DNA of 64,000 nt. Source: Halalkaliarchaeum desulfuricum. Lineage in GTDB: Archaea > Halobacteriota > Halobacteria > Halobacteriales > Haloferacaceae. The notes under the pieces are model-generated. The model saw only the letters and a program-made list of their open reading frames with translations, was not told where the DNA came from and ran no database searches. The stretch's first letter is position 1; each line of letters begins with the position of its first letter. The translations under genes were made by a program, and so were the position numbers. Where the stretch lies: assembly GCF_002952775.1 (NCBI RefSeq), contig NZ_CP025066.1:2666001-2730000 (forward strand), written 5' to 3'. Positions 5,090 to 60,839 of this stretch are shown here, one piece after another.

Positions 5090-5311
5090 TTACTCGGATT
5101 TCTTGTCGATGTGGTGGACGGCTTCCGGCGAGAGGAGGCGGTCGGTCGGAAGTTCGACCCAGCCGTTCGCAAGGAGACGAACGTTCCCCTCGTGGAGCAC
5201 CGAGTCGGGATCCGCATCGCCGTACACCACGACGTTCTCGTACTCGCGATCCAGGAGGTCTCTGAGATCGACATCCGCGAGGTCGATCGCTGATTCGGTT
5301 GAGACGACCAT
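5090..5311 (-). CDS. Small conserved-looking acidic protein of unknown function
   Basis: A 73-residue acidic protein beginning MVVSTESAIDLADVDL and ending AVHHIDKKSE. It has the amino-acid bias and codon use of a real haloarchaeal gene (Asp/Glu-rich, low Lys, GC-rich third positions) and sits in a 390-bp gap that would otherwise be empty. No family is recognised and no metal or membrane motif is seen. It is 52 bp upstream of the VOC gene on the same strand, so the two may be co-transcribed. Confidence 0.65.
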   Translation of the reverse strand: MVVSTESAIDLADVDLRDLLDREYENVVVYGDADPDSVLHEGNVRLLANGWVELPTDRLLSPEAVHHIDKKSE

Positions 5312-5427: not shown

Positions 5428-7476
5428 ATGCACCACCCCGGGCCCCCACGGTTTATCGGCGTCGGATCGACGATCAACCTCGCCCCCAGGGATCCCGATC
5501 CTTCGGCGGAGTACGAGTGGTCCGTCGGGAGCGCACCGAAGGGAAGCGACGCGAGCGTGGGACGCGATCCGGTCGAACAGTTTACACCCGACGTCCCCGG
5601 CACCTACGAGATTCGTCTCGACGCACCGGACGGCGAGCACGCGCTCACAGTGCGGGTGTTCCCGACGTCCCGGAAGCCGCCACTACCTGTCGACGATGGC
5701 GATGACGAGACCGAGGGTGACGGTGGCGACGGTGGTGACGGCAGCGCGAGCGGTGTTTTAAGTAGTGGGATAAGTGGTGGGGTGAGTGGCGGGGTGAGTG
5801 GTGGAATAAGTGGCGGCGTGAACGGTCTCTCGGGCGGGGAAGCCGGTCGCTCAGCAGGGGAATTCGCCGACGTTTCCGACGACGTGTTCCACGGCGGCGC
5901 GGGAGGGCGACCCAGACTTCGGCTCGACGGACGGATCGAGGAGGAGGAAGTCGTGCTTTCGGCGACGCCGAAGCCGGCGCCGGGGGCCGACGTTCCTGCC
6001 GGCGGATTCGCGGTCGAGTTCCTCGTCGACGACCGGGACCCGCTGTCGGATTCGGCCCTGACGATCGAGGGCCACGAGGCACGGATCGACCGGGCGGATC
6101 TCCCGGGGTACAGTCGGATCCATGCGGTTGCGGTGGATCCCGCAAACGACACCTACAGCGTGTCGGACGCGGTGGCAATAGCACCGACGGAGGACGGGCG
6201 GGTAGTCGTGGATCGACTCAACGAGCCGCCGGCGTGGAGTCGGTCGATTACGCTGTACGAGATCTACGTCCGGACGTTCGCCGACGGCGACGAGCCGACG
6301 TTCGAGGCGATCACAGACCGGCTCCCGGAACTCGCCGAGTTCGGGGTAGACTGCATCTGGTTGACGCCGGTGCTCCAGAACGACGGGTTCGATCACGGCT
6401 ACAACATCACCGACTTCTTTTCGATCGCCGACGACCTGGGTACCCGGGAGGAGTTCGAGGCGTTCGTCGACGAGGCTCACGACTACGGGATCTCGGTGCT
6501 GTTCGACCTGGTGCTCAACCACTCCGCCCGCGAGCACGAGTTCTTCAGGCGCGCGAAAGCGGGAGATCCGGAGTATCGCGACTGGTACGAGTGGGAAAGC
6601 CAGGAGGAAGACGCCCCGGCCACCTACTTCGACTGGCCGTACATCGCGAACTTCAACTTCGACAACCTCCACGTGCGGCGGCACCTGCTCGACGTCGTCG
6701 ACGAGTGGGCGCCGTCCGTCGACGGGTTCCGGTGTGACATGGCGTGGGCAGTACCCACGAGCTTCTGGCAGGAGATCCGCGACCGGGTGAAGTCCCACGA
6801 CCGCGAGTTCCTGTTGCTCGACGAGACGATTCCGTACGTTCCCGAGTTCCACGAGCTCTGTTTCGACGTCCATTTCGACACCACGCTGTATCACAACCTG
6901 CGGCAGATCGGCCACGGCGAGATGCCCGCCCGGGCGGTGGTGGACGCGATCCGACAACGCGCCGAGACCGGCTTTCCGGACCACGCTGGATTCCTCCAGT
7001 ACATGGAGAACCACGACGAGACTCGATTCCTCGAGGAGTGTGGTCGCCCTGAAACGGAGGCGGCCGCGGGTGCGATCTTCACGCTCCCCGGGATTCCGCT
7101 CCTGTATGCCGGCCAGGAGATCGGCGAGCGAACCCGCCGCGAGACGATTTCCTGGGCGGACACGGACGAGGAGCTCCGGAGCCACTACCGGGCGCTGAAC
7201 GACCTCAGGCGGGAGCGCCCCGCGCTCGGTCCCGGCGGCGCGTTCGAGCCCGTCGAGATCGATGCCGTCCACGACGGCGTGGTGGCGTACGCTCGCGAAG
7301 CTGACGGCGAGCGGCTCGTCGTGGTGTTGAATTTCGCACCGATGCCCGAACACGTCAGTCTTCCCGGCGAGAGGGTCGAATCGATAGATCTCGTGTCGGG
7401 CTCCGACGTCGATACGCCATCGGGGGACCTCCGTGTCGAGAGCGTCGCCGTTGTTTCCGCCGAGAACCAGCGTTGA
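5428..7476 (+). CDS. GH13 alpha-amylase-family enzyme with N-terminal PKD/Ig-like domain
   Basis: A 682-residue glycoside hydrolase family 13 protein. Residues about 1-85 form a beta-rich PKD-like module (EYEWSVGSAPKGS, PGTYEIRLDAPDG). It is joined by an acidic and then Ser-Gly-Gly repetitive linker to a second beta domain and the (beta/alpha)8 catalytic domain from about residue 270. The catalytic residues are visible: nucleophile D437 in GFRCDMAW, acid/base E466 in LLDETIP and D530 in MENHDETRF. No signal peptide is seen, so it is probably cytoplasmic and acts on alpha-1,4-glucans or maltodextrins. It converges on a second GH13 gene with a 13-bp gap, suggesting shared alpha-glucan metabolism. 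Exact specificity is uncertain. Confidence 0.9.
   Translation: MHHPGPPRFIGVGSTINLAPRDPDPSAEYEWSVGSAPKGSDASVGRDPVEQFTPDVPGTYEIRLDAPDGEHALTVRVFPTSRKPPLPVDDGDDETEGDGGDGGDGSASGVLSSGISGGVSGGVSGGISGGVNGLSGGEAGRSAGEFADVSDDVFHGGAGGRPRLRLDGRIEEEEVVLSATPKPAPGADVPAGGFAVEFLVDDRDPLSDSALTIEGHEARIDRADLPGYSRIHAVAVDPANDTYSVSDAVAIAPTEDGRVVVDRLNEPPAWSRSITLYEIYVRTFADGDEPTFEAITDRLPELAEFGVDCIWLTPVLQNDGFDHGYNITDFFSIADDLGTREEFEAFVDEAHDYGISVLFDLVLNHSAREHEFFRRAKAGDPEYRDWYEWESQEEDAPATYFDWPYIANFNFDNLHVRRHLLDVVDEWAPSVDGFRCDMAWAVPTSFWQEIRDRVKSHDREFLLLDETIPYVPEFHELCFDVHFDTTLYHNLRQIGHGEMPARAVVDAIRQRAETGFPDHAGFLQYMENHDETRFLEECGRPETEAAAGAIFTLPGIPLLYAGQEIGERTRRETISWADTDEELRSHYRALNDLRRERPALGPGGAFEPVEIDAVHDGVVAYAREADGERLVVVLNFAPMPEHVSLPGERVESIDLVSGSDVDTPSGDLRVESVAVVSAENQR
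5761..5820 (+). repeat. 12-nt coding minisatellite (five units) encoding SGGV/SGGI tetrapeptides
   Basis: Five consecutive 12-nt units of the form AGTGGYGGGGTG (with AGTAGTGGGATA first) lie in frame and encode SSGI-SGGV-SGGV-SGGI-SGGV at residues 112-131 of the GH13 enzyme. The unit falls between the N-terminal beta domain and the following domain, so it acts as a flexible linker. The repeat differs only by single-base changes, which suggests recent expansion. Confidence 0.85.
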
Positions 7477-7489
7477 CTGCCCTCTCGAA

Positions 7490-9166
7490 TCACCGATTCA
7501 GCGACAGCACCTCGCCTGGTTTGGGGGTTCGCTTGCCCCACTTGTCGGCGCGAATCCAGACGTAGTCGCAGCCGCCGAGGTCGACGGTCAATTCGCCCCC
7601 GTCGACGCGATAGTCGCCCTCCCCGACGATCGCCGTTGAAACGTCCTCTGGGGGTTCGAACGCGCAGGTGACTTCCCTCGGTTCGTCCGCGAGGTTGTGT
7701 GCACATACGAGCAGGTTGTCTCCGTGATCGAAACGGTGGATCCAGACGTCGTCGCGGTCGACGTCGACGACCGAGTAGATCCCGTCGACGATCTCCGGAC
7801 ACTGGCTCCGGGCGTCGACGAGTTGTCTGACCTGCGAAAGCAACGATCCGGGATCGTCCAGTTGGTCGGCGACGTTGACTCGCTCGTAGCTGTACTCGCC
7901 GTCGTCGATGACGGGGTTGTGCACGTTCCCGGGATCGGACGTCGAGAAGCCGGCGTACTCCGAGTCGTCCCACTGCATCGGCGTTCGGACCGCCTCCCGC
8001 TCGTGTAGTGAGGGATCCGACCCCATTCCGATCTCGTCGCCTGCGAGCAACACCGGGACGTCGGGCAGCGACAGCAACATGCTGTGAGCCATCGCCACGC
8101 GGTCAAGATCGTTGTCGTAGATCTCGGCGAGCCGGAGGCGATGGCCGCGTTCGAAGATCCACGAGTCGCCCGCGTCGTCGCCGAACGCCTCGCGGGCGTG
8201 GTGGAACGCCTCCTCGGGGAGCTTCAACAGGTTCCACTCGTCGTGATTGCGCAGGAAGTTCGCCCACTTGCCGACCCCCTCGACGTCGGGGACGATCTCG
8301 TGGGCACGGTAGAGCGGCCAGGTGTCTTCGATCCCGATGGCGTAGGTGAGGTGGGCGTTCATCACGAAGTTGAACTGCAGGTCGAACGCCTCTCCGTCCC
8401 CGAAGTAGTAGGGAAGCTTCTCGGGTTGATCGTCCGCCTCCGCGAGCAGGATCGCTTCGGACTTCTCCTCGCTGACGACCCGTTTCAGTTCCGTGAACAG
8501 TTCGATCGGTTCCTCGAGCGTCCCGCCATCGTGTCCCTTGGGCATCAACATCGGGTGGGCGGCGTCGATCCGGAACCCGTCGGCGCCCTGGCGGAGCCAG
8601 AACCGGAGGACGTCGTGAAATTCCTCCCGGACCTCGGGATTTCGGACGTTCAGGTCGGGCTGGTGGTGGAAGAACTGATGGAAGTAGTGTTCGCCGGCGA
8701 CATCGTCGTACGACCAGACGCCGTCCTCGTGTTCGGGGAAGATGTTGAACGTGTTGTAGGCGTTCTCGACGTCGTCGGTCCACAGGTAGTAGTCACGGTA
8801 TTCCGACTCGGGATCCCGACGGGCCTGCTGGAACCACTCGTGGTCGATCGAGGTGTGGTTGAAGACGAGATCGGTGAGCACACGGATGCCCCGGTCGTGT
8901 GCCCGATCGGTGAACTCGCTGAAGTCCTCGACCGTCCCCAGACGGTCGTCGACGGCGTAGTAGTCGGCGACGTCGTAGCCGTTGTCCCGGAGCGGACTGG
9001 GGTAGAACGGCCGGATCCACAGGCAGTCGACCCCGAGATCGTCGATGTACTCGAGCTTCTCGATGAGTCCCCGGAAATCCCCCCAGCCGTCGCCGTCGCT
9101 GTCGTAGAACGTCTTCACATCGAGCGTGTAGATAGTTGCGTCGTCGAGCCAGGCGGTGTCGGTCAT
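7490..9166 (-). CDS. GH13 enzyme of the trehalose synthase / oligo-alpha-glucosidase type
   Basis: A 558-residue GH13 protein resembling trehalose synthase (TreS)-like and alpha-1,6-glucosidase-like enzymes. It has MTDTAWLDDATIYTLDVKTF at the N-terminus and the FYDSDGDGWGDFRGL calcium-site motif. The catalytic triad is D201 (GFRIDAAHP), E243 (LLAEADDQPEK) and D309 (RNHDEW). RTPMQWDDSEYAGFS is typical of the TreS/oligo-1,6-glucosidase branch. It may interconvert maltose and trehalose, or hydrolyse short alpha-glucosides; the two cannot be separated here. No signal peptide. It is convergent with the PKD-GH13 gene, separated by 13 bp. Confidence 0.88.
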   Translation of the reverse strand: MTDTAWLDDATIYTLDVKTFYDSDGDGWGDFRGLIEKLEYIDDLGVDCLWIRPFYPSPLRDNGYDVADYYAVDDRLGTVEDFSEFTDRAHDRGIRVLTDLVFNHTSIDHEWFQQARRDPESEYRDYYLWTDDVENAYNTFNIFPEHEDGVWSYDDVAGEHYFHQFFHHQPDLNVRNPEVREEFHDVLRFWLRQGADGFRIDAAHPMLMPKGHDGGTLEEPIELFTELKRVVSEEKSEAILLAEADDQPEKLPYYFGDGEAFDLQFNFVMNAHLTYAIGIEDTWPLYRAHEIVPDVEGVGKWANFLRNHDEWNLLKLPEEAFHHAREAFGDDAGDSWIFERGHRLRLAEIYDNDLDRVAMAHSMLLSLPDVPVLLAGDEIGMGSDPSLHEREAVRTPMQWDDSEYAGFSTSDPGNVHNPVIDDGEYSYERVNVADQLDDPGSLLSQVRQLVDARSQCPEIVDGIYSVVDVDRDDVWIHRFDHGDNLLVCAHNLADEPREVTCAFEPPEDVSTAIVGEGDYRVDGGELTVDLGGCDYVWIRADKWGKRTPKPGEVLSLNR

Positions 9167-9237
9167 TCGTTCGAGAAAACGTCGTCGTGGAGAAAGCGCT
9201 TACGGAGACTGAAGGCGAAACCCCCCCGGGGAGAATG

Positions 9238-9651
9238 TCAACCGAGGCGCTCGTCGAGAATCAGTCGCGTTTTGGTGCTTTTCACCTCGTCCATCTCCCG
9301 CGCCTGGGAGATCAGTTCGTTCACTGCGCGAGTATCGACCGCGTCGACGATCAACACGACGTCCTCCTCGCCGGACACCTGCCAGACGTAGTCGACCTCC
9401 GGCCAGTCGGCCATCCGCTCTGACACGCCGGCGGTGTCGACGTCCATCGCCACCGAGATTTCGACCATCGCCTTCACGTTCCCCGTCCGGGTTGTGACCG
9501 TGAACCGTTCGATGATACCCTCCTCTGTCATGCGTTCGACCCGGTTGCGAACGGTTCCTTCGGAGGTACCGACCGACTCTGCGATCTCCGTGTACGGCGT
9601 TCGAGCGTCACGCCGGAGGATGTTCAGGATGCGACGATCGAGGTCGTCCAT
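9238..9651 (-). CDS. Lrp/AsnC-family transcriptional regulator
   Basis: A 137-residue Lrp/AsnC protein. The N-terminal winged HTH (MDDLDRRILNILRRDARTPYTEIAESVGTSEGTVRNRVERM) occupies residues 1-55 and is followed by the RAM effector-binding domain (VAMDVDTAG...DVVLIVDA). It is divergent from carA, with a 97-bp intergenic region that contains the inverted repeat TTACGAA-T-TTCGTAA. It therefore probably regulates itself and carA, linking carbamoyl-phosphate synthesis to amino-acid (for example glutamine) supply. The ligand is not known from sequence. Confidence 0.92.
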   Translation of the reverse strand: MDDLDRRILNILRRDARTPYTEIAESVGTSEGTVRNRVERMTEEGIIERFTVTTRTGNVKAMVEISVAMDVDTAGVSERMADWPEVDYVWQVSGEEDVVLIVDAVDTRAVNELISQAREMDEVKSTKTRLILDERLG

Positions 9652-9682
9652 ACACGAGAGTGTGTCTCCAGCACCTTACCGA

Positions 9683-9697
9683 TTACGAATTTCGTAA
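9683..9697. promoter_or_regulatory. Candidate Lrp operator between lrp and carA
   Basis: A perfect 7-bp inverted repeat TTACGAA-T-TTCGTAA lies 32 bp from the lrp start and about 20 bp upstream of the carA TATA-like element ACTTATTACC (9717-9726). A half-site-like TCTCGTAA overlaps the carA start region. Lrp-family proteins bind short dyads of this sort; binding itself is inferred. Confidence 0.6.
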
Positions 9698-9748
9698 CTT
9701 CGCTTCGAACGACGCACTTATTACCCGGGAGTTCATTCGTTTCTCGTA

Positions 9749-10810
9749 ATGTCGGGCGCCTACCTCGCGCTGGCCGACGGACGCGTGTTCGAAGCACGTT
9801 CCCGTTCGCCGGGGCGTACCCGTGGCGAACTGGTGTTTACGACTGCCTATACGGGGTACGAAGAGTCGCTTACGGACCCCTCGTACGAAGAGCAGATCCT
9901 CACGTTCTCGTACCCCCTGATCGGTAACTACGGCGTCCGAGCGGAGCGGTTCGAGTCCGACCGCGTCCATCCCCGTGCCGCGATCGCCCGCGAATTCACC
10001 GACGAGGTGGCCGCGTGGCTCGCCGATGAGGGCGTCCCGGCGATCGATCACCTCGATACACGCGAACTGGTGACGACCGTCCGGGAGGAGGGGGCGATGC
10101 GGTGCGGGATCGCCGCCGGTCCGGACGCGACGCCGGAGGACGCACGCGAGGAGCTCGCGAACGCAAAGGACATGAGCGAGCACGTGGACATCGGCTCGCA
10201 AGTGAGCGTCTCCTCGAAGACGACGTACCACGGCGGCGGCGAGTACGACGTTGCGCTCGTCGACTGCGGCGTCAAGGGCTCTATCGTCGACTCGCTTACC
10301 GCCCGTGGGGCGGACGTCCACGTCTTCCCGTACGACGCAGACGGGTCCGACGTTGCGGCCGTCGATCCGGATCTCCTGTTCGTCTCGAACGGGCCGGGCG
10401 ACCCGGCGAACTTCCAGCAGGCCCAGTCGCTCGTTGAATCGTTCGTCGGCGACGTACCGATCGCGGGGATCTGTCTGGGACAGCAGATCGTCGCCCGGGC
10501 GTTCGGCGGCACCACCGAGAAGATGCGGTTCGGTCACCGCGGGGTCAACCAGCCGGTCCGTGACCTCCGCACCGATCAGGTCGTGATGACGACCCAGAAC
10601 CACGGCTACACCGTCGACGAAGTCGGCGATCTCGAGGTGACACAGGTGAACGTCAACGACGGTACCGTCGAAGGACTGGAGTGTACGGAGTCGAACGTCA
10701 TCACCCGCCAGTACCACCCGGAGGCCAATCCGGGACCGCACGACTCGCTCGGCTTCTTCGACGACGTACTCGAACTGGGGGAGTGTCGAATCCCCGTTGC
10801 GGCGGATTGA
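9749..10810 (+). CDS. carA: Carbamoyl-phosphate synthase small (glutaminase) subunit
   Basis: A 353-residue CarA that hydrolyses glutamine and passes ammonia to the large subunit for carbamoyl phosphate, feeding arginine and pyrimidine synthesis. The N-terminal CPSase small-chain domain has GELVFTTAYTGYEESLTDPSY and GNYGV. The class I glutamine amidotransferase domain has the nucleophile C242 in GICLGQQ and the His/Glu pair in QYHPEANPGPHDS. The ATG at 9749 follows a TATA-like element by about 28 nt, consistent with a leaderless mRNA. carB is not adjacent within view, being neither upstream nor immediately downstream. Confidence 0.95.
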   Translation: MSGAYLALADGRVFEARSRSPGRTRGELVFTTAYTGYEESLTDPSYEEQILTFSYPLIGNYGVRAERFESDRVHPRAAIAREFTDEVAAWLADEGVPAIDHLDTRELVTTVREEGAMRCGIAAGPDATPEDAREELANAKDMSEHVDIGSQVSVSSKTTYHGGGEYDVALVDCGVKGSIVDSLTARGADVHVFPYDADGSDVAAVDPDLLFVSNGPGDPANFQQAQSLVESFVGDVPIAGICLGQQIVARAFGGTTEKMRFGHRGVNQPVRDLRTDQVVMTTQNHGYTVDEVGDLEVTQVNVNDGTVEGLECTESNVITRQYHPEANPGPHDSLGFFDDVLELGECRIPVAAD

Positions 10811-10826
10811 ACGTCAAGTGACTCTT

Positions 10827-10890
10827 CGACAGGCACGGTTCTCGGCAGGCACGGTTCTCGACAGGCACAGTTCTCGACAGGCACGGTTCT
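10827..10890. repeat. Four tandem copies of a 16-bp unit downstream of carA
   Basis: The unit CGACAGGCACGGTTCT is repeated four times head to tail (10827, 10843, 10859, 10875) with only two single-base differences (G for A in copy 2, A for G in copy 3). A partial fifth unit begins at 10891. It starts 16 bp after the carA stop codon and ends 94 bp before surE. No hairpin-plus-T-tract is formed, so it is not an obvious terminator; a slipped-strand minisatellite is the simplest reading. Confidence 0.85.
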
Positions 10891-10984
10891 CGGTAGCACC
10901 GCTTTTGGTAGCGACGTCTCTCGAACCGAGTTCCCGTCCAGCCGTTCTCGGAGCATCTATCAGCGTTCGGTGACAGCAACGTGT

Positions 10985-11857
10985 ATGACCGAGCTCCTGC
11001 TCACGAACGACGACGGGATCGACGCCCCCGGGATTCGGGCGGTGTACGACGCCCTCTCGACGGAGTACGACGTGACGGTTGTCGCGCCGGCCACGAACCA
11101 GAGCGGCGCCGGCGGCGCTCGAACCTGGTGGGAGAGCACGCTCGAGTACGACGAGCACGAACTCGGATACGCCGTCCGAGGAACTCCCGCCGACTGCGTG
11201 GCGTTCGCGTTCGCTGGCCTCGATCTCGAGCCGTCCCTGGTCGTGTCCGGCTGCAACGACGGGCCGAACATCGGCGCACACATCCTCGGCCGGTCCGGGA
11301 CGGTCGGCGCGGCCCACGAGGCGGCGCTGCTTTCGGTCCCCGGGATCGCGGTGTCGCTGTACGATCTCTCCGATCTACCCCCGACAAACGCCGTGCCGTC
11401 GGTCGACGACTTCGCGGTCGCTGCCGACGTCACCCATCGGCTCGTCGACCGGTGGCTCACGGACGGTCCGATCGAGGGTGCCGACTACCTGAACGTGAAC
11501 GTGCCCGCCCCCGCCTCGGCGCGGAACCTCGGCAGTACCATCGGTGGAACGGATAGATCGGAATCGAACTGGCCGCCGATGCGGTTCACCCGTCCGGCGA
11601 CGGGCTACGACGTGACGACCGTCGACCCGACCGATCCGGAGGTGACTGCACGGGGCGAGGCGGGGATCGAACTCCGCGACCGGTTCTGGCGGTCGTTTTT
11701 GAACCTCGACGTCCCGGATCCGGTGGGTACCGACCGCCGGGCAGCTGTCGACGGCGAAATCTCCATCTCGCCGCTGTCGGTGGGGCGCCCAGTCTCGACG
11801 GACATCGTCGGCGAGACGTTCGCGCTGGAGCGGGACGGTTCCGCCGCGAGCGATTAG
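10985..11857 (+). CDS. surE: SurE-type 5'/3'-nucleotidase
   Basis: A 290-residue SurE phosphatase that dephosphorylates nucleoside 5'- and 3'-monophosphates. The metal site LLTNDDGIDAPGI is at the N-terminus, followed by VVAPATNQSG (the conserved Asn/Ser region), VRGTPADCV and SGCNDGPNIG. The ATG at 10985 was chosen over an alternative start 15 nt upstream because SurE proteins begin a few residues before the TNDDG motif. A TATA-like CATCTATC lies about 30 nt upstream. Confidence 0.93.
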   Translation: MTELLLTNDDGIDAPGIRAVYDALSTEYDVTVVAPATNQSGAGGARTWWESTLEYDEHELGYAVRGTPADCVAFAFAGLDLEPSLVVSGCNDGPNIGAHILGRSGTVGAAHEAALLSVPGIAVSLYDLSDLPPTNAVPSVDDFAVAADVTHRLVDRWLTDGPIEGADYLNVNVPAPASARNLGSTIGGTDRSESNWPPMRFTRPATGYDVTTVDPTDPEVTARGEAGIELRDRFWRSFLNLDVPDPVGTDRRAAVDGEISISPLSVGRPVSTDIVGETFALERDGSAASD

Positions 11858-11935
11858 CCGACGGTCATTCGACGACCGGGACGGTCCGCTGGCGGGACCG
11901 CGAATCCTTTATCGATGGCGCCCCCAGGGACGCAC

Positions 11936-52737: not shown

Positions 52738-52755
52738 ATCATATTTTTATATGAT
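52738..52755. promoter_or_regulatory. Palindrome overlying the TATA box of the Cys-rich regulator
   Basis: ATCATAT-TTTT-ATATGAT is a perfect 7-bp inverted repeat with a 4-nt spacer. Its centre is 37 nt before the ATG at 52784 and it contains the TATA-like element TTTTATATGA, so a protein bound here would block or assist TFB/TBP. The regulator's own gene is the obvious target. Confidence 0.55.
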
Positions 52756-52783
52756 GAAACTAACCACCCAACGTGGGACGACC

Positions 52784-53506
52784 ATGAATTCAACACCTCC
52801 CCGATCCGGCGAAATCAACGACGCCGACCAGTCGTTGCGAGCCCGGTTGCGGATCACGCCGGATCCGGATCTGAACTGCGGTATCCTCGAAAGCGGAACA
52901 GAGGGTACTGTCGTTGCTCGCAACGAGGTGTGCATCGATCCGAGCTGCGCTGACGGCTGCGAGTGTCGCGCGGAACTGGAGATTGTCGACGACGAAATCG
53001 AGGTTCGGGATTTCGTCGCGAGCTCGGTCGACGAAGAAGCCTGCGTCTGTCCGGTGTTTCGAGAACGTGACTGCACCGCCAACATCGAATCGTACAAGAA
53101 CGATTTTCTGTACGTGTCGATCACGGTACCCTCACGTGACGTCCTCTCGGACATCGTGGCGACGCTACGGGAGCGTGGTGCGTCCGTCAGCCTCGAGCGG
53201 ATACAGTCGCTGTCGAGTGAAGAATCCGAAGGACGGACCGTCGAACTCGATGTCAGCACGATAACCAAAAAACAGCGGGAGGCTATCGAGATGGCCGTGG
53301 AGGCGGGATACTACGACTACTCCACTGAAAAGGCGGAATTGGAGGAACTTGCAGCGGAGTTGGACATTTCCCTGTCGGCGTTTACACAGCGACTTCGAGC
53401 GGCCGAATCGAAACTCGTCCGGGAACTGTCGATTGCGGACGGTTTCGAGTTTCGTAACGAGCCTGGTTCTACGGACACGCAGAAGTCTTCAACGCGAGTC
53501 GACTGA
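52784..53506 (+). CDS. Cys-rich Bat/DmsR-like HTH transcriptional regulator
   Basis: A 240-residue regulator. The C-terminal HTH-10 (bacterio-opsin activator type) domain is KKQREAIEMAVEAGYYDYSTEKAELEELAAELDISLSAFTQRLRAAESKL (about residues 162-211). The N-terminal half has eight cysteines (C32, C50, C55, C59, C61, C87, C89, C97) in NEVCIDPSCADGCECR and ACVCPVFRERDC, suitable for an Fe-S or redox switch. Haloarchaeal DmsR regulates anaerobic respiration and is of this type; position beside a Mo-oxidoreductase operon makes that role likely. The ATG at 52784 follows a TATA box centred about 37 nt upstream; ATG 52751 is inside that box. Confidence 0.85.
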   Translation: MNSTPPRSGEINDADQSLRARLRITPDPDLNCGILESGTEGTVVARNEVCIDPSCADGCECRAELEIVDDEIEVRDFVASSVDEEACVCPVFRERDCTANIESYKNDFLYVSITVPSRDVLSDIVATLRERGASVSLERIQSLSSEESEGRTVELDVSTITKKQREAIEMAVEAGYYDYSTEKAELEELAAELDISLSAFTQRLRAAESKLVRELSIADGFEFRNEPGSTDTQKSSTRVD

Positions 53507-53597
53507 CGAGCGGAGTTTCTGGGGTGCGGCCAGTTCCCGCCGAACGCGTTTCGTTGGTGTGATCCGTACCGTGCTTTGATCTCGAACTGCGGGGGAA

Positions 53598-53626
53598 GCG
53601 GTTTCCGTATAGAAACCTGAAACCGC
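53598..53626. terminator. Inverted repeat between convergent regulator and Mo-oxidoreductase genes
   Basis: GCGGTTTC (53598-53605) and GAAACCGC (53619-53626) form a perfect 8-bp hairpin with a 13-nt loop. It sits 8 bp past the end of the molybdopterin subunit and 91 bp past the regulator, so it could end either transcript. No T-run follows, so intrinsic termination is uncertain. Confidence 0.35.
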
Positions 53627-53634
53627 ACGTCAGA

Positions 53635-56316
53635 TCAGCGCTTTTCGACGTCTACACGGATGTCACCGTAGTAGACCGAACTTCCGCTCAGGCGGTCGTA
53701 CTCCGCAGGAATGATGTTGTTGTTGTGACTCCCCCGGGGAGATTCGCCGAATTCCGCTGCGGCGACTGTACCGTAGGCCCAGTGCCCATTTCCGTAGGGC
53801 TTACCAACTGTGCCCGGTCGGATTCCTTCCCACAATTTCGCGGTGCCGTCGATCTCACCGGTCGGCGAACTGATGCGGATTTCGTCTCCATCTCGGATGC
53901 CGAGTGCGTCGGCGTCCCGTGGATTGATCAGCGTGTAGTCCTCCTCCGGTTCCGAACCTGGATCGATGTCGCCGAACTCGTGTTTCCACGTACAGTTCGC
54001 CGAGCGGCCCTCCCTGTTGAGACCCGACTTGTAGTCGACGAACTTGAACGGATACTCGTCCTCGTCGCCGACCTCGTACGGTTCCTCGTAATGGGGGACG
54101 AAAGCGTGGCGGTCGCCGTCTGTGCGTGCCTGGTATTTGCAAACGTCGAGTACGGTATCGACGTCGGTGTCGTGCCGATCGGCGTGTGATTCCAGCCCGC
54201 CTTTCAGCGTTTCCGAGTAGAACTCGAACCGGCCAGTGTCCGTCGAGAACTCGCCGCCCTCCGAGGGCCACCGGTGTCTGTACTCCCACTTGTCAGTGTG
54301 CCAGATTCCGCGGTTACGGAACGTCTCCCAGCCGTCGATCTCCTCGCCGAGATCGTGATCGATCCCGGGATCCCATATCGGCTGGGTTCGGATCTTGATG
54401 GCGTTTCGGGAGAACGCCTGGGCACGCTTTTCTCGTGCGGTGAAGTCGTCCCCGGGAATCTCCTCGCGTACCGTCCGGCCCGTCTCCGGATCGGGAAACT
54501 CGCGTTCGAAGAACTCGAGCATGTTGTCGAACCCTCGATCGGCGAGCGCTTCCGCGATCAGGTACGGCACCTCCGTCTCGTCCGTCTTGACGTCCCACGT
54601 TCGACCGTTCTCGAGGACATCCTCTGGATCGTCCGGATCGTCTGCCAGCACAGGTTGCATCAGATTGATCGAGCGGTATCTCTGGCCGTCGCTCTGTAGT
54701 TGGCCCCACCGCTCGAACTGGTGGTGAGTGGCGGGGAGCACGATGTCGGCGAACCACGCCGTCTCGCTGGGATGGGTTTCGATGGTCGCGTGGAACGGAA
54801 TCTTCTCGAGCGCCTCCAGCCAGCGCTGGTTTTCCGGGTTGGAGAACGCGAAGTTGTTCCAGTACGAGATCAGTACCTCGATCTCGTTTGGATCCTCGTC
54901 GAGGATGCCGTCCGCAGCGTTGTTGGTCACGACACCGCCGCCGGATTCGGCGTTGTTCAGTGCAGGGAACTCCAGGCGCCCACGCTGATCGATTTTCTCG
55001 TGGGCGAGTCCCTGTTCGGCGATTTCGTCGACGTACTCGTCCGGACCCGGGAGTCCCTGAACAGCCGACTCCGGGGCGAACAGGGTGCCACCGCGGTTTC
55101 CGACAGAGCCGACGAGGCCGTTGAGAACGTGTACCGCCATCGCGGTGTAGGTGCCTCGAACCTGCATGCTCGGTCCGCCGCCGAGCCAGGAGATGGCGTG
55201 TGGGCGCGCTTCCCCGAACCGTTGGGCCACGCGCTCGATCTGTTCCACCGGAACGCCGGTTACGTCATGGGCCCATTCCGGCGTTTTGTCCTTCAGTTCG
55301 AGGTTCCACCACTCGACGAGCCCGTGGACGTTCTCGCTCTCATCGAAGGCATCCGGTTCGATCTCCTCGCCCGATTCGAACTGGTTTACGCCGTCGTGGA
55401 AATCACCGACGAACTCTCTGTACCACAGTCCATTCGTCAGGAGGACGTGCGCAATGGCGGACGCCAGTGCGCCGTCGGTGCCGGGTTCGATCGGGAGCCA
55501 CTCGTCGGATTTGGTGGCCGTCGACGACAGCCGAGGATCCACGACGGCCGCCTCCCCCTGATCGAGCAGTTCACCGAACGCCCGCATGTAGTGGGACACC
55601 TGTCGGTTTGCCGAAACTGGATCGGCACCCCAGGCGATCAAGTACTCCGTTTCAGTGACGTCGTACTGTCTGTAGGCCCACTCGCCCTCGGTGAACATCG
55701 GACCGGCCTTCTCGGCTTCCGCACAGATCGCACTGTGAGAGATGTTGTTCGGCGATCCCACGAGCTGTGGCACGTGGCTGTAGAGGATCGGGCGCAGGTA
55801 GGTGTACCGCCCCCTGGTGATCATGAACTTGTGGGTCTCCTCCGTTTCTCGAAGGTCCATGATGCGATCTGCGATCTCGTCGATCGCTTCCTCCCAGGAG
55901 ATCGGTTCGAACTCCGGATCCTCGTCGGGACCTTTCTCCGGATTGGTCCGCCGCAACGGTTGTTTGATCCGGTCCGGGTCGTATAACTGCTGGATCGAGA
56001 GGTCCTGACGGGGACAGTCATTGTTCCCGTGAACCTTCGACCGCCGGTTGCCCTGTGATTTGAGCGCCCGGCCGCTCTGTTCGTCGACCAGAATCTGCGC
56101 GGAACACCAGGAGGTACAGCCGGCACAGGTACTGGGCCGCCAACTTCCGGAGTGTTCCACGAGCTGTGTGCGCGCGTCTTCTGCGGCAGACAGTGTGTTC
56201 AACTGGACTCCGATTCCGGCAGCGGCTGCTCCAACAGCCCCCGCTTTCATGAACCCTCGTCGATCGATTGCCGGCCCCGTGCTGTCGTTGCTGTCGTCGG
56301 AAACGTTCTTGCTCAT
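53635..56316 (-). CDS. Tat-exported Mo-bisPGD oxidoreductase catalytic subunit (PsrA/PhsA/TtrA-like)
   Basis: An 893-residue molybdopterin oxidoreductase. The N-terminus has a Tat signal (R19 R20 in DRRGFMKAGAVGA). The N-terminal [4Fe-4S] site is C64-x2-C67-x3-C71...C101 (CAGCTSWC...NDCPRQ). The likely molybdenum ligand is C198 in HSAICAEAEKAG, where DMSO reductases have Ser. A Cys ligand places it with polysulfide/thiosulfate/tetrathionate or arsenate-type enzymes. C-terminal molydop-binding motifs include LINPRDADALGIRDGDEIRISSPTGEI. It would act outside the membrane as a terminal reductase or an oxidase; the substrate is not determined. ATG 56316 is chosen; it begins 4 nt after the upstream gene's stop codon. 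Confidence 0.85.
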   Translation of the reverse strand: MSKNVSDDSNDSTGPAIDRRGFMKAGAVGAAAAGIGVQLNTLSAAEDARTQLVEHSGSWRPSTCAGCTSWCSAQILVDEQSGRALKSQGNRRSKVHGNNDCPRQDLSIQQLYDPDRIKQPLRRTNPEKGPDEDPEFEPISWEEAIDEIADRIMDLRETEETHKFMITRGRYTYLRPILYSHVPQLVGSPNNISHSAICAEAEKAGPMFTEGEWAYRQYDVTETEYLIAWGADPVSANRQVSHYMRAFGELLDQGEAAVVDPRLSSTATKSDEWLPIEPGTDGALASAIAHVLLTNGLWYREFVGDFHDGVNQFESGEEIEPDAFDESENVHGLVEWWNLELKDKTPEWAHDVTGVPVEQIERVAQRFGEARPHAISWLGGGPSMQVRGTYTAMAVHVLNGLVGSVGNRGGTLFAPESAVQGLPGPDEYVDEIAEQGLAHEKIDQRGRLEFPALNNAESGGGVVTNNAADGILDEDPNEIEVLISYWNNFAFSNPENQRWLEALEKIPFHATIETHPSETAWFADIVLPATHHQFERWGQLQSDGQRYRSINLMQPVLADDPDDPEDVLENGRTWDVKTDETEVPYLIAEALADRGFDNMLEFFEREFPDPETGRTVREEIPGDDFTAREKRAQAFSRNAIKIRTQPIWDPGIDHDLGEEIDGWETFRNRGIWHTDKWEYRHRWPSEGGEFSTDTGRFEFYSETLKGGLESHADRHDTDVDTVLDVCKYQARTDGDRHAFVPHYEEPYEVGDEDEYPFKFVDYKSGLNREGRSANCTWKHEFGDIDPGSEPEEDYTLINPRDADALGIRDGDEIRISSPTGEIDGTAKLWEGIRPGTVGKPYGNGHWAYGTVAAAEFGESPRGSHNNNIIPAEYDRLSGSSVYYGDIRVDVEKR

Positions 56317-57160: not shown

Positions 57161-58400
57161 CGTCATCACCCTTCATGGGACCGCCCGTGCAACTACTCAT
57201 GTCTGTTTGCGCGAATTCCGGGATGATATCCAATGCAAACCATCGCATTCCGATCGTATAGACGAGTCCACAGAGGGCCACGGCGAAGACGACGAGCGCC
57301 CCCTCGACGAGCGATGGAGAGTAGCTCGCGATCGGATACTCGTATCCCGGGTCGGCAACCAGGGCGACGACCTGCCCACCGACGACGAACTCGTAGCGGG
57401 TGACGAACACTCCCACGATTACCGCCGCTGCGCTCGCAAATACGCCGTTTATCGTCCGGGTTTTCGGGTACGCCAGCAGTCCGAGTGGCACGACGAGTCC
57501 AACGAATATTCCCACTCCCCAGTAGATTGGCGCAAACGATCCAAGGAGCATCTGCTGGTATGCCATAGCCACTGTATCGCTCGTTGCCGTCAGACCGTAG
57601 ATTCCCTTGAGAAATGCAAAAAGCAGCGTCAACCCGACGAGCGCACCGAGTCCCACCGCTACCGGTCGAGTCATGAACTCCTCGAGTTCAATACACATGC
57701 TCTCGTCTCTGATCTTGAACTCCGCGATAACGACGAACGCAACCAGCGCGAGGCCGGACGTAATGGCTGTCAGCAAGAAGTACAGTGGGGCGAAAATACC
57801 GCCCCAGTACGGTCGGGATTCGACCATGCCGAAGATGTACCCGGCTCCGAGTATCACGCCCAGAGCGACGATGAAACTTATCACACCGACCGCCTCCATA
57901 ACCGGAGCGTCGACAAAATTGTCCAGCTCCATCAACACCGCAAGCAGCACGAGCACGGCGATCAACGAACCGGCGAACAGGACGACCCACCAGATCGGCG
58001 ATGACAGGTTCGCGTTGAGGAACGCGTGAACGAATGGTCGTTCTGGACGACCCAGGGAGATGGTGATGCTGAACAGACCGGCAGTCACCGCCGCGATTCC
58101 GACGAAGATGCTCCGCTTCAGGACGATTTCAGCACCTCGAACGTGGAAAATAAGTGCAAGACTGACGACGCTGATAACGATCCCGGCACCCATCAACAGG
58201 AAGAACTCGTACGTCGAAACCAGCAAGCCCCACGGGAACTGGTCGGTGATTCCAAACGTGACGGCACCGACACTCAGGGCCTGATAGATGCCGTAAAGCC
58301 CGATCACCAGGCCTGCTCCGATTATAGCGTACCAGGCGTACTCGAGAGGCGATGTCGACTGTGGCCCCAGATCAGCGGCACGCCCCGTTTCTCCGCTCAT
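57153..58400 (-). CDS. NrfD/PsrC-like quinone-interacting membrane subunit
   Basis: A 415-residue integral membrane protein with about ten helices, matching the NrfD/PsrC quinol-interacting family (PWGLLVSTYEFFLLMGAGIV, TISLGRPERPFVHAFLNANLSSPIWW, YWGGIFAPLYFLLTAITSG). It should exchange electrons between the quinone pool and the iron-sulfur subunit. It is the first gene of the three-subunit operon and its ATG (58398-58400) overlaps by 4 nt the stop of a 30-codon ORF. A cytoplasmic tail with CTGGPMKGDDDD ends it. Confidence 0.93.
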   Translation of the reverse strand: MSGETGRAADLGPQSTSPLEYAWYAIIGAGLVIGLYGIYQALSVGAVTFGITDQFPWGLLVSTYEFFLLMGAGIVISVVSLALIFHVRGAEIVLKRSIFVGIAAVTAGLFSITISLGRPERPFVHAFLNANLSSPIWWVVLFAGSLIAVLVLLAVLMELDNFVDAPVMEAVGVISFIVALGVILGAGYIFGMVESRPYWGGIFAPLYFLLTAITSGLALVAFVVIAEFKIRDESMCIELEEFMTRPVAVGLGALVGLTLLFAFLKGIYGLTATSDTVAMAYQQMLLGSFAPIYWGVGIFVGLVVPLGLLAYPKTRTINGVFASAAAVIVGVFVTRYEFVVGGQVVALVADPGYEYPIASYSPSLVEGALVVFAVALCGLVYTIGMRWFALDIIPEFAQTDMSSCTGGPMKGDDDD

Positions 58401-58489
58401 GGCTTTCCCCGTTCCTCGGGCGGATTGTGTTGTGTATATTTCACATAACCGCCCACGTTTATACACCCTTTCGAACTGTTATCAGACAT
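58397..58489 (-). CDS. Short upstream ORF (30 codons) ATGA-coupled to the NrfD-like gene
   Basis: On the minus strand ATG 58489 starts MSDNSSKGCINVGGYVKYTQ...PPEERGKP, a 30-residue peptide whose stop overlaps the NrfD-like start (ATGA). A Shine-Dalgarno-like GGTGA lies 6-10 nt upstream of its ATG, and a TATA-like ATTTATATCA at 58551-58560 would start transcription near 58530. It is hydrophilic and no family is recognised. It may be a real small protein or a translational leader that couples ribosome entry to the Mo operon. Confidence 0.5.
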   Translation of the reverse strand: MSDNSSKGCINVGGYVKYTQHNPPEERGKP

Positions 58490-58492
58490 TGT

Positions 58493-58560
58493 CTTCACCA
58501 CTATGTTGTTGGGTAACACGCAGTGGTGGCCCTGTTGCTTAATGGTGAAGTGATATAAAT
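58493..58560 (-). promoter_or_regulatory. Mo-oxidoreductase operon promoter with repeated TGGTG elements and SD-masking hairpin
   Basis: The minus strand has a TATA-like ATTTATATCA (58551-58560). Beside it CTTCACCA (minus strand, genomic 58543-58550) has a perfect inverted partner TGGTGAAG (genomic 58493-58500). In the leader, CACCACT and AGTGGTG (58522-58528 with 58496-58502) form a 7-bp hairpin with a 19-nt loop that covers the SD-like GGTGA of the 30-codon ORF. The repeats are visible; regulator binding and RNA folding are inferred. Confidence 0.5.
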
Positions 58561-58683: not shown

Positions 58684-60192
58684 TTAATCGTCAGCGACCG
58701 CCGCGTCGGGTCGATACTCCTCGCTGATTTTCTTCCATTTGTCCGTGCGGAACCGCCAGTAGTTGATCGCCGCCGGCACTGCGGTCTCGGCGACGAACGC
58801 CAGATACAGCCCCCACAGCCCGATGGCGGGCACGTCGATCGGGGGCGTGATCGCCCCGAGAACCGGAACCGTGACCGCCGGCACCGACAGCCCGACTGCG
58901 CCGAGATACGCGAGTGGAATCGACACGCCGAACATACCGAGCAACTGGCTCAGGAACGTTATCCGGGTGTCGCCGCTGGCGTCGAGCAGACCCGCAGCGG
59001 AGCTTTTCACCCCCTGGAATACGACCGCGAAACTCGCTGCATACACGAGGTTGATCGCGATCGGGATCTCGCCGCTCGCTGGATCGTCGGCGAACAGCAC
59101 CACGATCTGTTCGGCGAAGACGGCGACCAGTAGCGCAGACACCAGATACGTCGCCACCGAAAACCGGGTGATATCTCGGCCATAGGCGGCGGCTTCCGTT
59201 TCGTCGTTCTGCCCGAGCGCCTGGCCGACCAGACTGGACGCCGCCAGCCCGAAGCCCCAGCCGGGCGTGTTCATCACGCCCCAGATCCGCCGGGCGATCA
59301 CCCACGCGGCGACGGTGTTTTCCCCGAAGATGTCGAGGATCCCGAGCATCGGGAACTCGGCGGCCGTCCAGACGAGGTTGCGCAGTCCGACCGGCGTTCC
59401 GATCTCGACGAGGTCACGGATCATCCCAGGTTCGGCCCACTTGCCGGTCGCAGAAATGCGAACGGGGAACGGGACGATCCCTGGCAACCCACCGAGCAGC
59501 AGCCCGACGACGAACGCCGCCGTGATCGCCACGTTCGAAAGCACCGTCCCGAGCGCCGCGCCGGCGACGCCCATGCCGAACCCGAAGATGAACACCGCGT
59601 TGAGGGCGATGTTCGCCACCGCCCCGCCGGCCCGCACCAGCATCGCCGTGTAGGCGTCGTCACAGCCGACGAGCACGCGGCTCCCGACGAGGTTCAACCC
59701 CGCAAAGGGGATGCCGAGCCCGACGATCTTGAGATACGTCGCCCCCTCCCGGATCGCCGCCTCGTTGCCCGTGAGAAGCGAGATGAACTGTTCGGGATAC
59801 GTCCAGAACATCGCAGAAAGCGGTAGTGTGAGGACGACGACGAGCAGCGTGCTCGACCGGACGGCCCGACCCAGTTCGCCCCACGCCTGCGCGCCGTACC
59901 GCTGGGAGACCAGCGCGATCGTCCCGCCCGCAACTCCACCGCCGATGGCGAACGCGAACCCCCAGAACGGGCTCGCGAACCCGACGCCCGCGACAGCAGA
60001 GGTCCCCACCGCGACGCCGACCATCGCGACGTCGACGGCGTTTTTCGACATCCGGGCGATCCCGGTCACGACGCGGGGCCAGGCGAGTGCAGTCGTCTTT
60101 ACTGCCCGTTCGCGGTCGATCAACCCGAGCTTCGCCAGCCCGAGTCCGATCCAGAGAATGACCAGCCGGACGGGATTCGGCAGCCGGGACAT
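58684..60192 (-). CDS. MATE-family multidrug efflux transporter
   Basis: A 502-residue protein with twelve hydrophobic segments in two homologous halves, of the MatE fold (NorM/DinF type): AVDVAMVGVAVGTSAVAGVGFASPFW in the first half, TPVGLRNLVWTAAEFPMLGILDIFGENTVAAWVIARR in the second. It likely exports organic cations in exchange for Na+ or H+. It starts with ATG 60192 (TTG 60195 also possible) and overlaps the TetR stop codon by 1 nt, so the pair is translationally linked. Confidence 0.92.
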   Translation of the reverse strand: MSRLPNPVRLVILWIGLGLAKLGLIDRERAVKTTALAWPRVVTGIARMSKNAVDVAMVGVAVGTSAVAGVGFASPFWGFAFAIGGGVAGGTIALVSQRYGAQAWGELGRAVRSSTLLVVVLTLPLSAMFWTYPEQFISLLTGNEAAIREGATYLKIVGLGIPFAGLNLVGSRVLVGCDDAYTAMLVRAGGAVANIALNAVFIFGFGMGVAGAALGTVLSNVAITAAFVVGLLLGGLPGIVPFPVRISATGKWAEPGMIRDLVEIGTPVGLRNLVWTAAEFPMLGILDIFGENTVAAWVIARRIWGVMNTPGWGFGLAASSLVGQALGQNDETEAAAYGRDITRFSVATYLVSALLVAVFAEQIVVLFADDPASGEIPIAINLVYAASFAVVFQGVKSSAAGLLDASGDTRITFLSQLLGMFGVSIPLAYLGAVGLSVPAVTVPVLGAITPPIDVPAIGLWGLYLAFVAETAVPAAINYWRFRTDKWKKISEEYRPDAAVADD

Positions 60193-60839
60193 CAACCCTG
60201 CCGGTCGGGATCGTCGAGCGTTTCCTCGATCGTTGGGAGGTCAGCCTCCTCGGTAAGGATCGGTTCGATGACCCGTTCGAGGAGTTCCTCGACGACGGTC
60301 CGGGTGTAGCTGTCGTTCTCCTCGCCGAGCGTGATCTGCCGGGTTCTGGCGCCATCCAGTGTCGCGACAAGAAGCGCAGCGGTCCGTTCGGGATCGACCG
60401 GCTCGAAGACGCCCTCCTCGATCCCGTCTTCGAGGATGTCGATCACGGTGGTCCGCAGGAGCCGGTCGCTCCGGACGAGCCGTTCGCGGATCCGGTCGTT
60501 GAACGCCCCCTGCGACCGCATTTCCAGAAGCGCGAGGTGAAACGCCTCCCGGTCCTCGTCGCCCGGCGCGAAGACGAATCGGGCCAGAAATTCCATCAGC
60601 CGTTCGCCCGGCGGGTCGGTCGACCGACACTCCAGGCGCTGTTCGTACGAATCGAGCAGATCGTCGAGAAACGCGACGAGTAGATCCTCCTTCGTGTCGA
60701 AGTGGTAGTGCAAAAGCGACTTGCTCTTCGAAGACTCGTCGGCGATGTCTTGCATCGTCAACTTCGCGTACCCGTGTTTCCGCAGGGCGCGGTCGACGGC
60801 CTCGAGTATTTCCTCGTCAGTTGCCGATTCCCGACCCAT
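60192..60839 (-). CDS. TetR/AcrR-family transcriptional regulator
   Basis: A 215-residue repressor. The N-terminal HTH is ILEAVDRALRKHGYAKLTMQDIADESSKSKSLLHYHFDTKEDLLVAFLDDLLDSYE (about residues 10-65), followed by a helical ligand-binding domain. Its own start codon overlaps a near-perfect palindrome, and the next gene is a MATE exporter, so it most likely controls both, responding to the exported compound. Confidence 0.93.
   Translation of the reverse strand: MGRESATDEEILEAVDRALRKHGYAKLTMQDIADESSKSKSLLHYHFDTKEDLLVAFLDDLLDSYEQRLECRSTDPPGERLMEFLARFVFAPGDEDREAFHLALLEMRSQGAFNDRIRERLVRSDRLLRTTVIDILEDGIEEGVFEPVDPERTAALLVATLDGARTRQITLGEENDSYTRTVVEELLERVIEPILTEEADLPTIEETLDDPDRQG

Follow-up and report, generated by a model that had tools for sequence, protein, structure and literature searches.

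A short upstream reading frame of conserved position before arr-like operons of haloarchaea, with a probable role in translational coupling

The window, a stretch of 64,000 nucleotides from the Halalkaliarchaeum desulfuricum genome, carries a minus-strand arrC-arrB-arrA-like operon encoding a membrane anchor of the NrfD type, an Fe-S subunit and a molybdoenzyme whose nearest match is ArrA (the labels arrC, arrB and arrA denote position and similarity, not proven activity), and a short open reading frame (ORF) leads into it. Comparison of this operon with its orthologues showed that the position of the small ORF is conserved, that the peptides are dissimilar, that a promoter element is shared and that SD-like motifs are enriched. 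As termination-reinitiation at ATGA is proven in Haloferax (PMC6728339), the best reading, to which we assign a probability of roughly 0.55, is that the small ORF is a translationally coupled upstream ORF (uORF) that would deliver ribosomes to the arrC-arrB-arrA mRNA and whose peptide would be irrelevant. The features discussed are collected in Table 1.

Table 1. Features of the arr-like operon and its leader (positions in the window)
Feature	Position	Strand	Basis
arrA-like molybdopterin subunit with Tat signal, 901 aa	53635..56340	-	NF041714 1070 bits, under cut-off 1600
arrB-like 4Fe-4S subunit, 281 aa	56321..57166	-	NF041715 281.6 bits, under its cut-off of 450
arrC-like NrfD/PsrC membrane anchor, 415 aa	57153..58400	-	PF03916 E 3.4e-28
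30-codon upstream ORF, MSDNSSKGCINVGGYVKYTQHNPPEERGKP, ATGA overlap with arrC start at 58400	58397..58489	-	sequence; positional counterpart in 8/8 operons
Octamer copy 2, TGGTGAAG, carries SD-like GGTGA of small ORF	58493..58500	-	sequence; no counterpart pair in relatives
Hairpin CACCACT...AGTGGTG over SD-like motif	58496..58528	-	predicted -14.3 kcal/mol; not conserved in seven relatives
Predicted transcription start, ∼25–30 nt below TATA box	58528..58534	-	expected from archaeal promoter spacing
Shared promoter element TTTATATCACTTCACCATTAAG, TATA box and stretch just downstream	58538..58559	-	ungapped 22-nt motif, 7/8 leaders
Octamer copy 1, CTTCACCA, between TATA box and predicted start	58543..58550	-	sequence; inside shared promoter element
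DmsR-like HTH_10 regulator, Cys-rich, convergent with operon	52751..53506	+	PF04967 E 6e-15; PF24277 26.5 bits vs cut-off 27

A small ORF of conserved position upstream of arrC

Protein searches yielded seven orthologous operons in six other haloarchaeal genomes, with arrC 40–55% and ArrA ∼70% identical. A scan of genome contigs matched only distant bacterial NrfD proteins, which were left out of the comparison, and in one congener of the source organism, sought for a codon-level selection test, the region was absent. The comparison set comprised eight operons (that of the window and these seven), among which one pair is congeneric (G112/G408), another pair comes from a single genome and one operon (G185) is represented by pieces only; given these two pairs, the operons do not count as wholly independent. 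The arrC start could be recognised in most of the eight by a similar MSxS beginning. All eight contained an ORF of 27–41 codons whose end falls in the range −24 to +4 relative to the arrC ATG, and in each the stop of the small ORF and the start of arrC overlap or lie within ∼30 nt of each other. The ATGA-coupled ORF stack described in an earlier, sequence-only reading of this DNA is present, running from 58489 to 58397 with ATGA over the NrfD start, and the search for the small ORF in other haloarchaeal operons that the same reading had proposed found a positional counterpart in all seven relatives.

An ATG-started small ORF was present in seven of the eight operons, compared with 1.3 expected, and one started by either ATG or GTG in all eight, compared with 2.1; neither count was reached by any of 2,000 dinucleotide shuffles of the leaders in which the arrC start was held fixed. 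Among control genes with a free upstream region, drawn from 464 kb of the own genome and from relatives with crude gene calls (acidic ORFs, first ATG), such an ORF was found in 10% of 128 (own genome) and 13% of 186 (several genomes). Exact ATGA coupling to an ATG-started ORF of 25–45 codons occurred in six of the eight operons, compared with 14% of ATGA-start controls. The limits on ORF size and end were chosen after inspection of the data; under looser limits the controls rise to 26% (ATG) or 45% (ATG or GTG), and seven of eight stays unlikely even against the generous-limit rate of 26%. Exceptions within the set were G112, where the best ORF is not unique, G408, where 4 nt separate its end from arrC, and G185, where it starts with GTG. 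As the leaders have strongly diverged despite their shared ancestry, a frame not under selection should by now have been lost. The small ORF does exceed chance, though only through comparison with the relatives. In the G054 leader (L063, ∼5095–5255), a possible chain of two ORFs was seen, a 16-codon frame ending in ATGA on the start of a 41-codon ORF.

SD-like matches were enriched over the set both before arrC (35) and before the small ORF (34), compared with 25.4 (0 of 400 shuffles); the match before the arrC of the window is weak, at only 4 nt. Enrichment at both starts speaks against the alternative that the frames are chance openings in a leader that is retained on other grounds, such as transcriptional regulation, with arrC started independently. 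In its favour, roughly half of the control genes begin with ATGA and so have a stop provided at no cost; this alternative would also accommodate the missing coding signature, the higher background under liberal limits and the fact that two further arr-like clusters are without an ORF of this size: the second one in the own genome has a coupled ORF of only 16 codons, and in that of G268 no coupled small ORF was found. We nonetheless consider it rather unlikely, since such ORFs are far more frequent than in control genes or in shuffles with a fixed arrC start, and since SD-like matches are enriched at both starts.

Peptide and proposed coupling

What is kept across the operons is the start, the open frame and the stop position of the small ORF. 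No alignment was found among the eight peptides, although the ArrA proteins are ∼70% identical. GC content by codon position is flat in the small ORFs (0.59/0.58/0.58), whereas it is ∼0.63/0.45/0.80 in arrC, and the pI of the peptides is mostly neutral to basic, which differs from haloarchaeal proteins in general. Even in the congeneric pair (G112/G408), DNA similarity in the small ORF is only partial and gapped. The lack of peptide conservation and the flat codon-position GC suggest that selection probably does not act on the product as a protein. A functional small protein, for example one that joins the respiratory enzyme as an accessory subunit or helps it to mature, would suit an ORF that is placed for cotranscription, kept in all operons and provided with an SD-like motif at its start, but dissimilar peptides next to a well-conserved ArrA, the absent codon signature, the atypical pI and the gapped similarity between congeners make it improbable.

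Attenuator leader peptides of the trpL type are also short ORFs before an operon, and in this the arr small ORF resembles them. Unlike them, it is without repeated regulatory codons and directly overlaps the structural gene. A terminator-like structure was sought on the coding (minus) strand after the small ORF and not found; with this and the overlap with arrC, we discarded an attenuator leader peptide as a candidate.

Transcripts in this organism group are mostly leaderless. A promoter at ∼58559 would give a leader of ∼130 nt before arrC, and the role of this leader would be to carry the short uORF. Ribosomes would translate the small ORF, terminate at its TGA within ATGA and, aided by an SD-like stretch in the ORF, reinitiate at the arrC start that overlaps it, which would bring them onto the arrC-arrB-arrA mRNA; what the peptide is would be without importance. 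We infer from the comparison both translation of the small ORF and a dependence of arrC on it.

Precedent for such coupling comes from Haloferax, where all nine gene pairs tested, with ATGA or similar close spacing, strictly depend on upstream translation, and where SD motifs are used for reinitiation (PMC6728339). The conserved position of the small ORF together with this precedent argues for the claim of the sequence-only reading that coupling into the operon may run through the small ORF. The Haloferax volcanii ATGA pairs and the arr case are alike in the ATGA overlap, a candidate SD-like motif within the upstream frame and the haloarchaeal hosts; they differ in that the former join two ordinary protein genes (PMC6728339), whereas the arr upstream frame has ∼30 codons and no sign of selection as a protein. 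Coupled short upstream ORFs as such are already discussed in the literature, and a short ORF that merely delivers the ribosome to a coupled gene is a recognised general proposal (PMC12548453). The arr small ORF shares with that proposal the shortness, the stop/start overlap and the apparently irrelevant peptide; the proposal is general, with mycobacterial and biotechnological examples, whereas in the arr case the position is conserved across haloarchaeal respiratory operons.

The way in which haloarchaea start translation on long-leader mRNAs is of interest because SD motifs in such leaders proved non-functional for de novo initiation in Haloferax (PMC3986360). A tentative generalization, for which we would give somewhat less than even odds, is that haloarchaea keep dedicated, peptide-unconstrained uORFs for the sole purpose of bringing ribosomes, through termination-reinitiation, onto respiratory mRNAs with long leaders, SD-driven leader initiation being unavailable; arr-like operons would be a conserved example and the leader a tuning point. 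An ORF conserved in place and not in peptide offers a simple, direct test of archaeal ribosome delivery by coupling, and this test case sits on the operon for an arsenate-reductase-like respiratory enzyme.

Promoter element, hairpin and octamers

The TATA box noted in the sequence-only reading (TTTATA at 58559–58554, minus strand) is supported as part of a promoter element that related operons share in position, upstream of the ORF. The log-likelihood of the shared element was 74.2, higher than in any of 60 sets of upstream regions drawn at random from haloarchaea (55 ± 3, maximum 61); the leave-one-out score of the window site was matched by 3% of control upstream regions. The promoter of the second arr-like cluster in the own genome resembles the element as well, scoring second of 157 upstream regions. 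As the motif is weak by leave-one-out once the TATA columns are removed, a regulator site within the shared element is only a suggestion. Upstream of arrB in G268 (L101), TATAAATACCCCCCTGTATACCGTGGG looks by eye like the CTGTAT-GTGG of G305 and G054 with shifted spacing; the scored best site for the motif there is another, weaker one.

From the position of the shared motif, the transcript is predicted to begin near 58530, before the ORF, which would leave octamer copy 1 outside the transcript. TATA-like sequences also occur within the small ORF of the window, TATAAA at ∼−63 and AATATA at ∼−40 of the arrC start, and may mark a second transcript start in this organism only. Transcription of arrC from such an internal promoter, giving a short-leader mRNA that bypasses the ORF, has little to recommend it, as no TATA-like site lies close to arrC in the seven relatives and the upstream promoter element is shared.

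The sequence-only reading had further proposed control at two levels, by a regulator bound at two octamers and by a hairpin that, unless opened, conceals the SD motif of the small ORF. The stem that it described over GGTGA is present (arms CACCACT at 58528–58522 and AGTGGTG at 58502–58496, with GGTGA at 58499–58495 partly inside) and folds well when isolated. Its stability depends on the frame, with z −3.7 for 40 nt selected to contain the hairpin, z −1.0 for 66 nt and P 0.1 in a fixed 60-nt frame, which makes the hairpin borderline with respect to chance. No shared structure emerged when the eight leaders were folded at both starts, and the leader matched no Rfam family up to E 1. The G054 leader has a strong local hairpin of its own, unlike that of the window.

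The octamer inverted pair likewise exists as described, with its copies 42 bp apart, and occurs in exact form only once in the own genome; an 8-bp inverted pair at 3–60 nt spacing also turned up in 11% of the shuffled versions of this stretch and in 22% of the own genome's 164-bp tiles, so that the pair is at chance level. None of the relatives retaining the operon and the ORF has it. Only copy 1 falls within the shared promoter element, and copy 2 is the SD-bearing stretch beside the start codon; as one octamer contains the SD-like GGTGA, stem and octamer are not independent features. We rejected the pair as a conserved operator for its uniqueness to the own genome, its absence from relatives and its chance-level frequency.

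Control at two levels would thus be very improbable, even though its features exist and copy 1 sits closely downstream of the TATA box, a possible site of action for a repressor: inverted 8-bp pairs are common by chance, one copy contains an SD-like motif, pair and stem are missing in every relative with operon and ORF, and leader SD motifs do not drive initiation in Haloferax (PMC3986360). Neither gating of translation by the stem nor binding of a regulator at paired octamers is supported by these results, and of the conservation that had been expected in relatives, that of the small ORF's position held and that of stem and octamers did not. With the pair at chance level and absent elsewhere, and the hairpin unexceptional and unshared, the octamers and the hairpin are most likely incidental or lineage-specific. 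The Cys-rich protein named as the regulator is real, a DmsR-like HTH_10 protein, but a related one was found near the operon in G305 and G185 and not in most of the other relatives' stretches examined. No result connects the protein with the octamers, and a link between it and this promoter would be a guess from proximity.

The operon and its surroundings

In subunit make-up the operon is like respiratory arsenate reductase ArrAB(C), which among solved structures and models is also closest to the arrA-like subunit. The best structure match of that subunit is ArrA 6cz7 (E 8.5e-280), which we take to be the Shewanella protein, and the best model matches of the arrB-like and arrA-like subunits are ArrB and ArrA. 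Unlike curated ArrA and ArrB, both score under the family cut-offs, and arsenate is a putative substrate. The operon of the window stops directly after arrA (53506–53635), and genes of the TorD/NarJ and NUBPL types are missing beside it; in relatives with a long enough contig, genes for a TorD/NarJ-type chaperone and a NUBPL-type ATPase come after arrA (families checked in G305). The second ArrA/ArrB-like cluster in the own genome (L100, contig positions 2836000–2855000, cluster at 6877–11882) is without arrC, has its own TorD-type gene and an HTH_10-like reading frame nearby, and encodes an ArrA 64–67% identical to that of the window. Upstream of the window operon, on the same strand, lie genes for a MATE exporter and a TetR-type regulator (58684–60839).
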